The position numbers and the translations under genes were made by a program. A stretch of 64,000 bases of DNA. Origin: Bacillota bacterium. Its GTDB lineage: Bacteria; Bacillota; UBA4882; UBA10575. Numbering within the stretch: the first letter of the stretch is position 1; each line of letters begins with the position of its first letter. The DNA is taken from the NCBI GenBank assembly GCA_029782135.1, contig JAKOVI010000130.1:1-64000 (forward strand), written 5' to 3'. The notes under the pieces are model-generated. The model had not been told where the DNA came from. It worked only from the letters and a program-made list of their open reading frames with translations, and did no database searches. This document shows positions 10,315-48,267 of this stretch, in pieces.

Positions 10315-11043
10315 ATGCGTGAAATGTCGCTGGCGTCGAAGCGCGAGAAGGCCGCGAGGAAAGAAGAAGAGATTAAACGGCAGATGGTGATGTACAAGCT
10401 GGAAAGCCAATTGATCGCGGAAGGTTACAAGTACATTGCCGGGGTGGATGAAGCAGGAAGAGGTCCGCTGGCCGGGCCGGTTTTGGCTGCTGCCGCCATA
10501 ATCCCCCCAGGAATCTTTATCGATGGCCTCAACGATTCAAAACAACTGAGCGCCAAAAAGCGTGAGCAGATCTATGAAGAAATATTGGCTTTAAAGATCC
10601 CTTATGGATTGGGGGAGGCTTCGGTCGCGGAGATTGATCGTTATAACATCCTTAAAGCCTCCCGGCTGGCGATGATGCGTGCGGTACACAACCTGCCGGT
10701 GAAGCCGGATTATCTCTTGATTGACGGTTACGCCTGGCCGGGAATCCCCCTTGCCCACCAAGGGGTGGTTGGGGGAGATGCGTTAAGCCTTTCGATTGCC
10801 GCCGCCTCAATTTTGGCAAAGGTAACCCGGGACCGCATCATGCAAGAGTTGGACCGGGTCTATCCCGGTTATGGGTTTGCTCAGCATAAAGGCTATCCGA
10901 CAGCCGAACATTTCGCGGCGATTGCCCGCTTGGGTCCTTCCGCTGTCCACCGGCGCAGTTTTAATCTCCGGTATCCACCGGCTTTGCCGGAAAACGAGGA
11001 ACATAGGACGCAGCAAGCCATGGAAGGAAGGGAGTCCGGATGA
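10315..11043 (+). CDS. rnhB: Ribonuclease HII
   Basis: RNase HII removes ribonucleotides and RNA primers from DNA. The catalytic block YIAGVDEAGRGPLAGPV is present, with DSKQLS and the later acidic residues in YLLIDGYAW and ASILAKVTRD. The first about 40 residues are a charged helical extension (EKAARKEEEIKRQMV), as in other Firmicute RNase HII. ATG 10315 and ATG 10324 are both possible starts. Its stop overlaps the next gene by four bases. Confidence 0.96.
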   Translation: MREMSLASKREKAARKEEEIKRQMVMYKLESQLIAEGYKYIAGVDEAGRGPLAGPVLAAAAIIPPGIFIDGLNDSKQLSAKKREQIYEEILALKIPYGLGEASVAEIDRYNILKASRLAMMRAVHNLPVKPDYLLIDGYAWPGIPLAHQGVVGGDALSLSIAAASILAKVTRDRIMQELDRVYPGYGFAQHKGYPTAEHFAAIARLGPSAVHRRSFNLRYPPALPENEEHRTQQAMEGRESG

Positions 11044-12161
11044 ACGGGCCGCTGAATCTACCAACAATCTTCACTACTCATCGTTTCCTCAAAGGAATGC
11101 TGGTCGAGGGGAAAGACGGACAGGTTGTCTTAAAGACGGACAATGGTTTTATCCCGGTTCAACTCGAGGGTAGTATGCCGCCATTCGGCCGGGAAATAAT
11201 CTTTCAGGTAATCCGGGAAGAACCAGGAAAGATCGTGCTTTCGCCGTACCACATGGAGAGTATCACGGAAAAGCTTCCCTTCTTGCGAGATCTATTTGGC
11301 AATAACCTGCAGGCAGCTTTTGAACTCCTGCAAGCACTGACCAATGAAAATTTGCCACTCACGCGGGAAGTATTTGCGGACTTAAAAAAGTGGATGTTAA
11401 CAGCGGAAAAGGTTTGGGGGGTAAAAGTTGATCCCCGGGTTTTTGCTTTTTTAAGGGCAAAGGAGCTCCCGGTTACCCCGCAAACCGTTTTATGGGCATT
11501 GTATGCCCTTTTTCCTTCCGTTCAGCGGGAGCTGTGGTGGATGACAGAAAAGGGGCAAGAACTTGCGCAACATTGGCTGGCAGTTTGGCGGGGTACGAAA
11601 AAAACTGATTCTCCGCAGAGCGTTGGGGTGAGCCCAGATCCTGAAGCATTAACCGGCGATCTGGCCGAACGAGTATTTAACTTCTTGACCGGCCTCCGCG
11701 GACTCGTAAAGAAGCATTATGGGTTTTATTCTTCCTCCGGAAAAGTGGAGAAAGAGCAATTATTACGCCAGGCCGTCACCTTCCTGGAGGCGCTGGCGCG
11801 GAATGACTCAAGCCTGCCCCATTTCCTGTTTTACTTGTTTTCCGAAGACGGACAGCCGCAAGTCAGATGGGAAGGACGGGGGAGCAAGGCCGGAAAAGCC
11901 GGATCCTCCGGCGAATTTTCTTTCCGTTTAATCTACCAGTCAGCGAGCCTTGGTGAGGTTGAAATCACCGGCGTGCGGAACCAGGCCGGTTTGCAGTTGA
12001 AGGTGCGGACCGAGAATTCCCTCGCCTTAAAGCAGTTTCCGGCGCTCCGCTCATTCCTTGAGCAGAAAGGCTGGTTGATCAGTCGATTCCAGGTGGAGTC
12101 CGGAGCGGAAGATTGCCGGCAGGAACGTTTCATTCCCTTACAGGTTGAGGGGTGGTTGTAA
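11040..12161 (+). CDS. Uncharacterised protein at the ylqG position (FliK-like suspected)
   Basis: Soluble 373-residue protein without a signal peptide or membrane segment. Residues about 15-75 form a beta-rich stretch (VEGKDGQVVLKTDNGFIPV); the rest is helical, then beta-rich at the C-terminus. It overlaps rnhB by four bases and is followed directly by an FlhB-C-like gene. Bacillus has the same order rnhB-ylqG-ylqH, so this is the positional equivalent of YlqG. The pairing with an FlhB-like partner makes a FliK-like relation plausible, but I see no decisive motif. Confidence 0.6.
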   Translation: MNGPLNLPTIFTTHRFLKGMLVEGKDGQVVLKTDNGFIPVQLEGSMPPFGREIIFQVIREEPGKIVLSPYHMESITEKLPFLRDLFGNNLQAAFELLQALTNENLPLTREVFADLKKWMLTAEKVWGVKVDPRVFAFLRAKELPVTPQTVLWALYALFPSVQRELWWMTEKGQELAQHWLAVWRGTKKTDSPQSVGVSPDPEALTGDLAERVFNFLTGLRGLVKKHYGFYSSSGKVEKEQLLRQAVTFLEALARNDSSLPHFLFYLFSEDGQPQVRWEGRGSKAGKAGSSGEFSFRLIYQSASLGEVEITGVRNQAGLQLKVRTENSLALKQFPALRSFLEQKGWLISRFQVESGAEDCRQERFIPLQVEGWL

Positions 12162-12162
12162 G

Positions 12163-12444
12163 ATGCAAGAGAAAATAAACAAGGCAATTGCCCTGCGTTA
12201 TGACGAAAATAGGGATTTTGCCCCCGTGGTCTTGGCAAAAGGCCAGGGGACGCTGGCCGAGGCGATTTTACAACTGGCCAAGCAAGCGGAGGTTCCCACG
12301 GTTGCCGCGCCGGAGTTGGTCAAACTCCTGGATGGGGTAGAAGTGGGGGAGTATATTCCCCCGGAAGCCTACCGGTTGACCGCGGAGATTTTGGCTTTTA
12401 TCTGGCAGTTGGAAAACCGGCTGGAGCAAAAAAAAGAACAATAG
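12163..12444 (+). CDS. FlhB C-terminal-domain-like protein (YlqH family)
   Basis: A 93-residue protein from ATG 12163, two bases after the preceding stop. The sequence KAIALRYDENRDFAPVVLAK is typical of the cytoplasmic domain of FlhB-type export switch proteins. The usual NPTH autocleavage motif and all FlhB membrane segments are absent. The following VPTVAAPELVKLL, IPPEAYRLTAEILAFI also matches FlhB C-terminal helices. Stand-alone copies such as YlqH occur beside rnhB in Firmicutes, including non-flagellated ones; their function is unknown. Confidence 0.8.
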   Translation: MQEKINKAIALRYDENRDFAPVVLAKGQGTLAEAILQLAKQAEVPTVAAPELVKLLDGVEVGEYIPPEAYRLTAEILAFIWQLENRLEQKKEQ

Positions 12445-12460
12445 AAACGGAGCCTACAAA

Positions 12461-12900
12461 TTAAAAGCTAACTCCAACCCTCATCCCAAAGCTGGGATTG
12501 ATCAAACTTGCTTTTGCCTTTATACAATAGTCCCCATAAAATTCTGAACCGTAAGCCATCGCCAAGAGCGCTTCAATTTTGACCCGTGGTAATATTCTAT
12601 AGCCTGCTCCGAAAGCGTAATAAGGTCCCCAGGAAAGAGAATGATCATCGTCAGGACTGCCGCCTGAAAGGTCAGAAAAGATCTTTCTGTTGCGAAAATG
12701 CATCGTGACGATGCCCAAGCGGCCGGTGAGATAGATCTGATGATAGGAAAATGGATAATAGTTGGCCAAAAAGTAGAAGGGGTAAATAGTGGTATCCACG
12801 CCAGGATCATCCGGCGTATCCTGCTTATAAAGGCCAAAACCGGTTAACTAATCCGGTATGGCTCCAAGCGAAAGTTAAAGAGCGTATGGCTGACAAATAA
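12461..12900 (-). pseudogene. Decayed outer-membrane-like beta-barrel protein gene
   Basis: Read on the minus strand, two adjoining open pieces form one beta-barrel-like C-terminus. The first (12900-12847) gives LFVSHTLFNFRLEPYRIS and ends at TAA. The second, in another frame from 12847 to 12461, gives TGFGLYKQDTPDDPGVDTT and continues with alternating polar/aromatic strands (IYPFYFLANYY, GPYYAFGAGYRI). It ends in FGMRVGVSF, with a terminal Phe and hydrophobic residues at positions -3, -5, -7 and -9, as in BAM substrates. Removing two bases near 12847 would restore one frame. There is no start codon with a ribosome site and no signal peptide, so it is a frameshifted fragment lacking its 5' part. 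Confidence 0.6.
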
Positions 12901-12963
12901 GTTTTTGGGTGGTTTTTTGATTTGAGGAAACAAAATATAATTGCATAATAACTAAAAGTCAAA

Positions 12964-12993
12964 TGCCGGGAGTTATTTCCCGGCACTTTTATT
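12964..12993 (+). terminator. Intrinsic terminator, possibly bidirectional
   Basis: TGCCGGGA pairs perfectly with TCCCGGCA across a six-base loop and is followed by CTTTTATT. An A-rich stretch lies on the other side. It would end plus-strand read-through from the rnhB operon before the riboswitch unit. The region 13000-13139 after it is A+T rich and holds no gene; it should contain the promoter of the riboswitch transcript, but no convincing -35/-10 pair was found. Confidence 0.8.
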
Positions 12994-13139
12994 ATGTTGG
13001 GGCTTGAGTCCGGTTTGGGGCGATGTTGTGGGTTGGCAATCTTTGGTTTTAATCTGTTCTTAAAAGAATATTTACTGTGAATTAATTTAAGTAACGAAAA
13101 TATTTGGTAATATTTTATGTAATAACTTAATTATTTAAT

Positions 13140-13245
13140 ACCATGAAAAAGGCAAACTTACCGAAAGGTAAGGACGCAAAGCCAGAGGTCTAAAGCAGTT
13201 TATCTGCCAAGATAGCTCGGTTGCCATGATCGTTTGGTTGCCATG
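13140..13245 (+). promoter_or_regulatory. Cyclic-di-GMP-I riboswitch (GEMM-I)
   Basis: The sequence matches the GEMM-I aptamer closely: GGCAAAC at 13151-13157, a stem closed by the GAAA tetraloop (TTACC GAAA GGTAA), the joining segment GGACGCAAAGCC, and the second arm with GGTCTAAAG (tetraloop receptor side), ending GCCAAGATAGCTCGGTTGCC. By alignment to the Vibrio Vc2 aptamer, the ligand-discriminating position 20 is G, the c-di-GMP type, rather than the A of cGAMP riboswitches. The 3' strand GGTTGCCATG at 13219 is repeated exactly at 13236, immediately before the terminator, and may be a competing strand for the switch. Confidence 0.93.
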
Positions 13246-13248
13246 TAG

Positions 13249-13282
13249 AGAACCTCAATGCTTTGCGTTGAGGTTCTTTTTT
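13249..13282 (+). terminator. Riboswitch expression-platform terminator
   Basis: AGAACCTCAA pairs perfectly with TTGAGGTTCT over a nine-base loop and runs into six T residues. It starts four bases after the second GGTTGCCATG copy and ends 24 bases before the GTG of the small gene, so it is placed to act as the transcriptional off-switch of the c-di-GMP aptamer. The sequence does not show whether ligand turns it on or off. Confidence 0.9.
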
Positions 13283-13305
13283 CATCAAAGAGGGGAAATG
13301 TTTTA

Positions 13306-13488
13306 GTGGCTAAGGCCGACATCAAAGATTTATGCGCAGTTCTGAAAAGTATAGAAAAGCAACCACTAGACACATATAATGAACAAACCTATAATTATTC
13401 TTCCGGATATCGAAAATGTGCTAGAGATATTTTAAAACTGATCAATGACCAAGAAGAGTCCACCGACCAGGGAGAGTCCGCCGAATAA
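13306..13488 (+). CDS. 60-residue hypothetical protein under c-di-GMP riboswitch control
   Basis: The start is GTG 13306 behind AGAGGGG. A longer frame beginning at 13258 would start inside the terminator hairpin and is rejected. The protein (VAKADIKDLCAVLKSIEKQP...) is soluble and mostly helical, with a Tyr/Asn-rich middle (YNEQTYNYSSGYRKCARD) and an acidic tail; it has two cysteines and no signal peptide or membrane segment. I do not recognise the family. Its isolation between two terminators and its own riboswitch suggest a c-di-GMP-responsive effector or regulator, which is inference. Confidence 0.72.
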   Translation: MAKADIKDLCAVLKSIEKQPLDTYNEQTYNYSSGYRKCARDILKLINDQEESTDQGESAE

Positions 13489-13499
13489 CCCCTCCTTTA

Positions 13500-13540
13500 A
13501 AGCCCCCTCCTGTGTTGTTGCTTGGGGGTTTTTTGTTTTT
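13500..13540 (+). terminator. Intrinsic terminator after the riboswitch-controlled gene
   Basis: CCCCC at 13503 pairs with GGGGG at 13524 across a long loop, with flanking A-T and G-T pairs, and is followed by six T, G, then five T. It closes the riboswitch transcription unit as a single-gene operon. The rest of the gap to yraN (13541-13706) is A+T rich; a weak ATCAGA/TCTGAT hairpin is the only structure seen. Confidence 0.75.
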
Positions 13541-13706
13541 CCCATAAATAATATGTTGGATGACCCCTGTATGCGGTACGTCGGACGAATATCAGATGTC
13601 CTAATTTCTGATGATGACCTTTTTTGTTGTATTTAGAAAATAAAGGAAAAAGTACTGAAGGCTCGAACTAATACACAAAAGGTAAAACGGACTTAGGGTG
13701 GTTTCC

Positions 13707-14087
13707 ATGTTCCGTAAAACACTGGGGAGTTACGGTGAGTTTCTCGCCAGGAACATTCTTGAAGCACAAGGCTACCTAATCCTTGAAACGCGCTTCCAAA
13801 CACGCTACGGGGAGATCGATCTAATCGCCGAACACCAGGGGCAACTGGTCTTTATAGAAGTGAAAACCAGAATAGGAAACGCTTTCGGCTCCGGACTGGA
13901 GGCAATCACCTGGCGGAAAAGAAGAAGTTTAATCCGGGCGGCGCTCTGTTATCTCCAGCGCAAAAACTATCGCGACTGTCCCTGCCGTTTTGATATTCTG
14001 GCTTTGACCTTAAACCAGCAAGGAGAACACCTCAGCCATGAACTGATTACCAATGCCTTCGGCGTGGAAGGAGGTAATTACTATTAA
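13707..14087 (+). CDS. YraN/UPF0102 family putative endonuclease-like protein
   Basis: A 126-residue protein with a restriction-endonuclease-like core: GSYGEFLARNILEAQGY, then YGEIDLIA and VFIEVKTR, giving the D...ExK arrangement of the YraN family. The biological role of YraN is unsettled. GTG 13698 could start the same frame, but ATG 13707 has the better placed AGGGTGG. Its stop overlaps the comM ATG; yraN next to the comM/yifB gene is a common pairing. Confidence 0.92.
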   Translation: MFRKTLGSYGEFLARNILEAQGYLILETRFQTRYGEIDLIAEHQGQLVFIEVKTRIGNAFGSGLEAITWRKRRSLIRAALCYLQRKNYRDCPCRFDILALTLNQQGEHLSHELITNAFGVEGGNYY

Positions 14088-15619
14088 TGCTGGCGAAGGT
14101 TGCAACGGCGACGGTACTCGGGATCGACGGTTATCCGGTTGAAGTCGAGGTTGACCTCTCCAGTGGACTGCCCTCTTTTGACCTGGTCGGCCTGGGTGAT
14201 ACGGCCGTCAAAGAAGCAAAAGAGAGAGTAAGATCGGCGATTAAAAATTCCGGGTTTGAGTTTCCCGCCCACCGGATTGTGATTAATTTAGCCCCGGCGG
14301 CGCTCAAAAAAGAAGGAGGCGGGTTTGATCTCCCGATTGCGCTCGGGATCCTCTGTGCCCAGGGTTTGCTCGACCAGGAGGTTCTAAGCGGCGGTGTGGC
14401 GACAGGTGAATTGGCCCTCGATGGTGGAATCCGGCCTGTGCGCGGGGTTTTATCAATGGCGATGGCCGCCGCACAGCAGGGTAAGAAATACATGTTGATC
14501 CCCAGGAGTAATTATGCCGAAGCCTGTGTGGTCAAAGGGATTAAAATTATTCCGGTTCAAGATCTGAACGAAGCGGTGATCTTTTTGCAAACCGGGCGCG
14601 AGCCTGAACTTCCTCCCCCGGTGGAGGAGTGTGCGGCGGCAGTTTACAGCGAAGATTATGCCGATGTCCGCGGGCAGGAAACGGCCAAACGGGCTTTGGA
14701 GATTGCCGCGGCCGGGGGCCATAATGTCCTGTTGGTCGGCCCGCCCGGCTCCGGGAAAACGATGTTGGCGCGGAGATTACCGACGATTCTCCCGGAATTG
14801 AACTGGGAGGAAGCCCTGGAACTGACGAAGATCTACAGTATTGCCGGGCTGCTCCCGGCCGGGACAGCACTCCTCAGGAACAGGCCGTTCCGGAGTCCAC
14901 ATCATACTACAACACGCGTTGGATTAATCGGAGGGGGTAACTACCCGCGGCCGGGCGAGGTTACATTGGCCCATCATGGCGTGCTTTTTCTCGATGAGTT
15001 CCCGGAATTTAACCGCGAAGTCCTGGAGGTCTTGCGTCAACCGCTCGAGGACGGGGTGGTTACCATCTCGCGGGCGGCATTCACCCTGGTTTATCCCAGC
15101 CGCTTTATGTTGATTGCGGCGATGAACCCGTGTCTATGCGGATATTATCGCGATCCGGTCCAACCATGCCGTTGTACGCCGTTGGAAATCAAGCGCTACA
15201 CTTCCCGGATTTCCGGTCCGCTCCTCGACCGGATTGATTTAATGGTCGAAGTGCCGCGCCTGAAGTACGAAGAGATGGCGACGGCCGGTCAGGGGGAATC
15301 TTCAGCGATGATCCGCCAGCGGGTCGTCCGCGCCCGCCGGATACAGGAAGAAAGATATCAAGGCCGCGGGATCTTTTGTAATGCGCATATGCGGCCGGAT
15401 GAGAGCAAACGCTATTGCGCTCTTGATGCCGAGGGGAAGAAACTGATGGCGAAAGCGGTGCAGAATTTCCGGCTCTCGGCCCGGGGTTATGAACGGCTGC
15501 TGCGGGTAGCCCGGACCATTGCCGACCTCGAGGGGAAGGAGAAGATTGCCCCTTTCCATCTTGCGGAAGCGCTGCAATACCGCGGGCTCGAGAGTGAATA
15601 TTACCGCCAATGGCAATAA
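14087..15619 (+). CDS. comM: YifB/ComM family Mg chelatase-like AAA+ ATPase
   Basis: A 510-residue AAA+ protein. The N-terminal Lon-S5-like ChlI domain (VEVDLSSGLPSFDLVGLGD, VNLAPAALKKEG) is followed by the ATPase with Walker A GPPGSGKTMLAR, Walker B VLFLDEFPEF and a magnesium chelatase C-terminal domain. A CxCGYY...CRC cysteine group (CLCGYYRDPVQPCRC) lies in the ATPase. ComM in gamma-proteobacteria is a helicase that aids branch migration in natural transformation; in Firmicutes the role is less clear. Confidence 0.93.
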   Translation: MLAKVATATVLGIDGYPVEVEVDLSSGLPSFDLVGLGDTAVKEAKERVRSAIKNSGFEFPAHRIVINLAPAALKKEGGGFDLPIALGILCAQGLLDQEVLSGGVATGELALDGGIRPVRGVLSMAMAAAQQGKKYMLIPRSNYAEACVVKGIKIIPVQDLNEAVIFLQTGREPELPPPVEECAAAVYSEDYADVRGQETAKRALEIAAAGGHNVLLVGPPGSGKTMLARRLPTILPELNWEEALELTKIYSIAGLLPAGTALLRNRPFRSPHHTTTRVGLIGGGNYPRPGEVTLAHHGVLFLDEFPEFNREVLEVLRQPLEDGVVTISRAAFTLVYPSRFMLIAAMNPCLCGYYRDPVQPCRCTPLEIKRYTSRISGPLLDRIDLMVEVPRLKYEEMATAGQGESSAMIRQRVVRARRIQEERYQGRGIFCNAHMRPDESKRYCALDAEGKKLMAKAVQNFRLSARGYERLLRVARTIADLEGKEKIAPFHLAEALQYRGLESEYYRQWQ

Positions 15620-47481: not shown

Positions 47482-48267
47482 GTGACGACATCAGGGAAGA
47501 TTAGAATCGGGATTGGCGAAGATAACCTGGAATTTTGTCAAATTCTCAAAAATTTTCTGGACTCAAATCATGATTTTCAAGTGGTGGCGGTCGCCAACGA
47601 CGGACTTCAGACCTTGGAAATGGTGAGAACGACCAGTATCGATATCCTGCTCTTAGATATGATCATGCCAAAATTAGATGGAATTGCTGTGCTAGAACAG
47701 ATCAAAAAGATGAATAATAAACCTAGGGTCATCATTATCTCCGCCTTTGGACACGAAGAATTGACGAGGATGACCGTTGACTTAGGCGCCGATTACTTCA
47801 TCATTAAACCATTTGATTTCCAGATTTTAGCCAAACGGATCCGCGAAATCTGCGGGACAAGAAGACCACCGACAGTTAATGTTTTCACCGCCGATTCTTC
47901 ACGGCAAGAGGTTGAGATCGAAAAGGAGATTACCGATATTCTACAAAGGCTGAAAATTCCCCCGCATTTTAAAGGCTACAACTATTTGCGCCGGGCGATT
48001 TTAATGTGCATCAAGGAACCGTCTTTGGTTAATGAGGTAACGAAGAAGCTTTATCCCCGGATCGCCGCCGAGTTTAACTCGACGCCGAACCGTGTGGAAC
48101 GTTCAATGCGCTTTGCGATCGAAACCGCCTGGAACCGGGGGGAGATTGAGTACCTTCATGAGCTGATGGGTTATTTGGTCGATGAGAAAAAAGGGAAACC
48201 GACCAATGTCAGTTTTATCGCAAAAATTTCCGACAAAATCCGCTTGAACTATAAATTGCGAAGTTGA
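47482..48267 (+). CDS. spo0A: Sporulation master regulator Spo0A
   Basis: Response regulator that starts sporulation. The receiver domain (residues 1-125) has GEDN for the acidic pair, phospho-acceptor Asp in ILLLDMIMPKLDG and Lys in FIIKPFDF. The C-terminal sigma-A-interacting DNA-binding domain ends with NRVERSMRFAIETAWNRG and KPTNVSFIAKISDKIRLNYK, diagnostic of Spo0A. The start is GTG 47482. I found no convincing 0A box (TGNCGAA) in the short upstream gap. Confidence 0.97.
   Translation: MTTSGKIRIGIGEDNLEFCQILKNFLDSNHDFQVVAVANDGLQTLEMVRTTSIDILLLDMIMPKLDGIAVLEQIKKMNNKPRVIIISAFGHEELTRMTVDLGADYFIIKPFDFQILAKRIREICGTRRPPTVNVFTADSSRQEVEIEKEITDILQRLKIPPHFKGYNYLRRAILMCIKEPSLVNEVTKKLYPRIAAEFNSTPNRVERSMRFAIETAWNRGEIEYLHELMGYLVDEKKGKPTNVSFIAKISDKIRLNYKLRS

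Follow-up and report, generated by a model that had tools for sequence, protein, structure and literature searches.

Does a broken outer membrane barrel gene in a spore-forming Firmicute record an outer membrane that the lineage has lost, or turnover of surface proteins in a bacterium that still has one? This question is raised by a locus in a stretch of 64,000 nucleotides (hereafter, the window), which comes from contig 37 in a draft assembly (2.38 Mb in 163 contigs, 96.6% complete). An initial annotation of the locus described the relic of a barrel gene in a Firmicute that has spo0A; it proposed either a diderm lineage or decay that followed the loss of an outer membrane. The description of the host as spo0A bearing was borne out by the presence of this gene in the window, which also encodes a YtfJ-type spore protein. 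The following features of the window are relevant to the question.

12145-12444, plus strand: left-flank open reading frame (ORF) similar to the C-terminal part of FlhB (PF01312, E 5.6e-19, profile positions 262-335 of 335)
12438-13619, no strand assigned: segment of 1182 bases, in place of which G001, a genome of the same genus, has 47 (blastn of the flanks)
12461-12799, minus strand: 3' half of a small outer membrane barrel gene, about the last five strands (reading frame, pairwise and profile matches, and strands mapped on the model of a relative)
12961-12988, pattern on both strands: terminator-like hairpin just upstream of the fragment's side (consensus scan: 4 found compared with 1.4 +/- 1.3 in shuffles)
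13141-13228, plus strand: c-di-GMP-I riboswitch inside the segment (Rfam RF01051, 89.4 bits)
13258-13488, plus strand: small ORF after the riboswitch, inside the segment, without a Pfam match but with relatives in other genomes
13698-14087, plus strand: right-flank ORF, which we take to be yraN-like and used as a synteny marker (present in 28 of the 29 genomes of the class)
47482-48267, plus strand: spo0A, sporulation regulator (Spo0A_C, E 1.7e-36; Response_reg, E 2.2e-24)

The minus-strand frame at 12464-12799 is open over 112 codons and is closed by a stop codon at 12461-12463. Outer membrane barrels, as a rule, carry a C-terminal beta-signal that ends in an aromatic residue; the C-terminal Phe and beta-signal noticed previously (FGMRVGVSF) are indeed found at the end of this frame, directly before the stop. 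When the fragment was used as a protein query against 61 genomes, matches with E <= 1 were detected in 18, its own genome included. The best foreign match came from G005 (E 9.3e-10, 38% identity), G011, G014, and G001 followed with E values of 2.9e-4 to 0.0016, and 13 further genomes matched weakly (E from 0.0086 upward). A profile, denoted A2, was constructed from the four intact relatives in G001, G005, G011, and G014, with the fragment left out; these relatives had originally been found with the fragment as the query, which makes A2 partly dependent on it, but the margin is wide. In the genome search, A2 matched the fragment with 53.5 bits (E 2.5e-14). When all six frames of the window were scanned, the fragment scored 56.1 bits and the runner-up frame 3.7; among 1000 shuffles, the highest score was 7.3, and the reversed sequence scored 0. 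Thus, the assignment of a minus-strand relic to barrel genes stands, whereas its proposed length of about 145 residues shrinks to the 112 codons that are supported. The fragment is present in one copy only in the host genome. A second match on the same contig (37682-37882, E 0.09) contains two stops, lies antisense to an Obg-type gene, and was dismissed as a chance hit.

The match between A2 and the fragment starts near profile position 89-97 and runs to position 200 of 200, and neither profile scanning nor frame joining detected a homologous N-terminal part upstream of the fragment in any frame. The fragment, accordingly, covers less than a full eight-strand barrel: the signal peptide and the first strands are missing. 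The initial annotation had extended the gene by some 33 upstream residues, joined through a two-base frameshift. The extension finds no counterpart in A2, to which homology begins only at the position given above, and the frameshift was not corroborated either, given that the best joined frame scored 56.8 bits, compared with 56.1 for the unjoined one, and that joins to shuffled heads reached up to 58.5. The same was observed with the G005 barrel alone as the query (44.7 bits for the best joined frame, 43.8 unjoined, and 45.9 with shuffled heads). These joins were made at in-frame points between 12800 and 12880 with an open tail, with the frame shifted by 1 or 2 bases in either direction. Lacking the 5' half, and with it the signal peptide and the first strands, the fragment can be neither exported nor folded into a barrel, and we infer that it has no function.

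The intact relatives, all from other genomes of the host's family, are 200-205 residues long; their N-termini are hydrophobic, and each ends in an aromatic residue. AlphaFold2 modeling of the G005 barrel (input of four rows, the fragment among them; mean pLDDT 68.6, with no residue at 90 or more) yielded a signal helix (residues 2-20) and nine strand elements, or eight if the first two are counted as one bent strand. The model showed similarity to the transmembrane domain of OmpA (1qjp; Z 16.4, rmsd 2.0, 134 aligned) and to NspA (1p4t; Z 17.5, rmsd 2.7, 154 aligned), and a Foldseek search retrieved 1p4t with E 2.1e-6 and an OmpA model with E 1.4e-7. The relatives are predicted to be OmpA/NspA-like barrels, with the differences that identity to these proteins is 13%, that the shared fold shows no function, and that the fragment would span only about five of the strands.

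The initial annotation had proposed a search of outer membrane protein families and a search of the rest of the genome for intact paralogs and for bamA, lptD, and lpx genes. The family search gave a divided result: barrel relatives were matched, but the Pfam family OMP_b-brl (PF13505) scored only 14 bits with the fragment, below the curated cut-off of 28.7. The four closest relatives scored none, 21.2, 22.2, and 25.6 bits, all likewise under the cut-off. An intact paralog was found, namely, a 185-residue barrel encoded on contig 117 of the host genome that passes the cut-off with 42.8 bits. The resemblance to OMP_b-brl, therefore, comprises the C-terminal beta-signal of the fragment, the sub-threshold profile matches of the fragment and three of the four relatives, and the paralog above the cut-off; the differences are that the fragment is devoid of the N-terminal half and that the fragment and its four closest relatives all fall short of the cut-off.

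Matches to A2 at E <= 0.01 are present in 16 of the 29 genomes of the class. A profile that included the fragment was searched against 398 genomes sampled from a larger group in the phylum and, at E <= 1e-5, matched 13, eight in the class and five outside it. No relatives were found among viral contigs in 139 pattern-matching stretches. The fragment is 31-35% identical to the four relatives in the alignment. In a phylogenetic tree (LG+G4) of 24 rows, which covered 23 of the 25 A2 places, with the fragment taken from the window and G012:C36 (internal stops) left out, the fragment grouped with G005 with a bootstrap of 100. Its branch is long (1.23 compared with 0.44), and the grouping may represent long-branch attraction. 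Four of the five loci outside the class come from other families and have a G+C content of 29.5-32.6%, and one of these barrels adjoins a protein with an SLH-like start, as judged by eye; Halanaerobiales would fit as the source of these low-G+C genomes.

In G001, G005, G011, and G014, the barrel gene is preceded by a gene whose open frame spans 584-600 residues and which was found in 9 of the 29 genomes of the class. No Pfam match was obtained for the two copies of this partner that were scanned. Its structural model is beta-rich but of low confidence (mean pLDDT 60.6), and the best PDB matches were WD-type propeller proteins with TM ~0.2, which we regard as local resemblance only, so that a propeller assignment was rejected. 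On the other side of the partner, G001 and G005 have a gene for a protein of 262-270 residues and two more genes, which Pfam assigns to the M16 type in G005. A separate operon type for G005 was considered and discarded because the neighbor order (two M16-type genes, 262-residue gene, partner) is the same as in G001. The combination of a beta-rich protein of about 600 residues, a small barrel, and two M16-type peptidase genes may form an envelope system that merits attention. The host's own copy of the partner is located on contig 53, is 78% identical to the G001 partner over 414 columns, and runs off the contig end; the true ortholog of the barrel, therefore, is probably in an assembly gap, and the fragment is probably a second, divergent copy.

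We consider it highly probable that the fragment represents the 3' half of an OMP_b-brl-type barrel gene, that this gene was a divergent copy of the partner-linked one, and that recombination left the fragment behind or moved it in a diderm host, in the course of turnover of surface paralogs. Under this scenario, which is the simplest one, recombination would have cut a paralog of a fast-evolving surface barrel at a permissive site, with the 5' half gone, and the remainder would have been left at, or moved to, a variable site flanked by the FlhB-like and yraN-like genes. The fragment, then, looks like ordinary gene turnover and not like a trace of a lost membrane. The points against this reading are the long open frame, the sub-cut-off OMP_b-brl scores, the low pLDDT of the model, and the finding of LptD in 0 of the 29 genomes of the class (see below).

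The open frame would be explained if the fragment were still used, either as a silent 3' cassette that recombines with a full-length barrel gene or as a short expressed product. The frame contains no stop in 111 codons, an openness equaled by 0.3% of nucleotide shuffles; in simulations of neutral substitution, it was still open in 25% of the cases after 40 substitutions and in about 7% after 100. Hence, either the cut is recent or the fragment has some residual use. A promoter-like match upstream of the fragment (minus strand, 12962-12934, 10 of 12 in a consensus scan) also speaks for use, but it is one of 7 sites found by the scan, compared with 3.1 +/- 1.8 in shuffles, and no convincing ribosome site was seen by eye for starts at 12799 and below. 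A cassette, furthermore, would need to recombine with the gene linked to contig 53, for which its identity to the relatives is too low to make this easy, and the genome holds a single copy. Altogether, continued use appears unlikely. The more specific version, in which a silent 3' cassette or an expressed half barrel would be part of a surface protein variation scheme of diderm Firmicutes at the FlhB-like/yraN-like site, we consider highly unlikely.

In blastn alignments to G001, identity is 80.1% for the left flank of the segment (12000-12437) and 80.9% for the right flank (13620-14100). We infer gain of the segment in the host rather than loss in G001, although two genomes cannot separate the two. 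The gap between the FlhB-like and yraN-like genes ranges from 107 to 2592 bases in 11 of the 15 genomes compared; the fetched stretch of the remaining four lacked an FlhB-like match. This variation in other genomes, along with the position of the segment well inside an 80,530-base contig, argues against an assembly or binning artefact in which the segment was wrongly joined at this site, an explanation that could appeal to the draft state of the assembly with its 163 contigs and to the absence of the segment in G001, and that we regard as very unlikely.

The two parts of the segment differ in their DNA matches: the riboswitch part matches DNA elsewhere in the host genome, in G001, and in others, whereas the barrel part has a single 28-base match in G005 (E 0.0099). 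Relatives of the small ORF behind the riboswitch were found in G010 (E 8.4e-15), G006 (9.6e-11), and, more weakly, G008. Three ORFs, taken from those of at least 50 residues in the segment, showed no mobile-element match, and we abandoned the possibility that the segment is such an element. In the host genome (on contig 5), as in G001 and G010, a similar riboswitch is located close to a tmRNA gene and is followed by other small ORFs. Ahead of the variable gap, the window (11040-12444) encodes a FliK-like ORF (weak, E 0.15) followed by the FlhB C-terminal-like ORF.

The genome searches for bamA and lpx genes were positive. The host genome contains three Omp85 matches, the best one cut by a contig end, and LpxA, LpxC, LpxD, and LpxI. 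On one contig, the gene order is Omp85 (cut), two OmpH, a gene of no family, LpxD, LptF/G, a 755-residue LptD_N protein, LptC, and an LptD_N/LptA-type gene; on a second, it is LptF/G, ABC ATPase, LptD_N/LptA-type, a gene of no family, LpxI, LpxA-type, FabA-like, LpxC, and ABC ATPase. Omp85 was detected in all 29 genomes of the class and LpxC in 28, G017 being the exception. The search for lptD was negative, with PF04453 matching 0 of the 29 genomes. In the parts of PMC5007114 that deal with diderm Firmicutes, no clear LptD/E is reported for Negativicutes and Halanaerobiales, so the absence of PF04453 was not counted against a diderm placement; for both lineages, the same parts describe lpxI, fabZ among the lpx genes, lpt genes, and BamA with Skp. 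As far as that account goes, the host shares with the described cluster Omp85 together with OmpH/Skp copies, LpxI, a FabZ-type gene among the lpx genes, lpt genes nearby, and no clear LptD, but differs in that its genes are on two contigs.

Judged by gene content alone, the host is a diderm (LPS-type) Firmicute with a complete-looking set of genes for an LPS outer membrane. Of the two alternatives in the initial annotation, the diderm lineage is thus upheld, and the second, decay once the outer membrane had gone, is contradicted. However suggestive a broken barrel gene in a Firmicute might seem, a relic of a lost outer membrane is extremely improbable given the Omp85, OmpH, LpxA/C/D/I, and Lpt genes of the host, the presence of Omp85 and LpxC across the class, and the intact paralog above the Pfam cut-off; where the assembly genes are intact, such a fragment is no sign of outer membrane loss. 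A chance frame that merely resembles a barrel deserves next to no credence, easily as barrel-like alternation is seen by eye, in view of the A2 score relative to the best shuffle.

Spore-forming diderm Firmicutes exist and have already been described, and the host is confirmed in a Firmicute group that combines sporulation genes with a gene set for an LPS-type outer membrane. In the relevant portions of PMC10665443 and PMC10628300, Limnochordia are counted as a third diderm lineage, and according to passages of PMC11456536, two Limnochordia isolates have an outer membrane and 46 Limnochordia MAGs, most of them from anaerobic mud and digesters, carry outer membrane marker genes. Our guess is that the host's class is Limnochordia. 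Separately, the 755-residue LptD_N-domain protein (L085 7153-9420) is a candidate divergent LptD in this class without PF04453 LptD.
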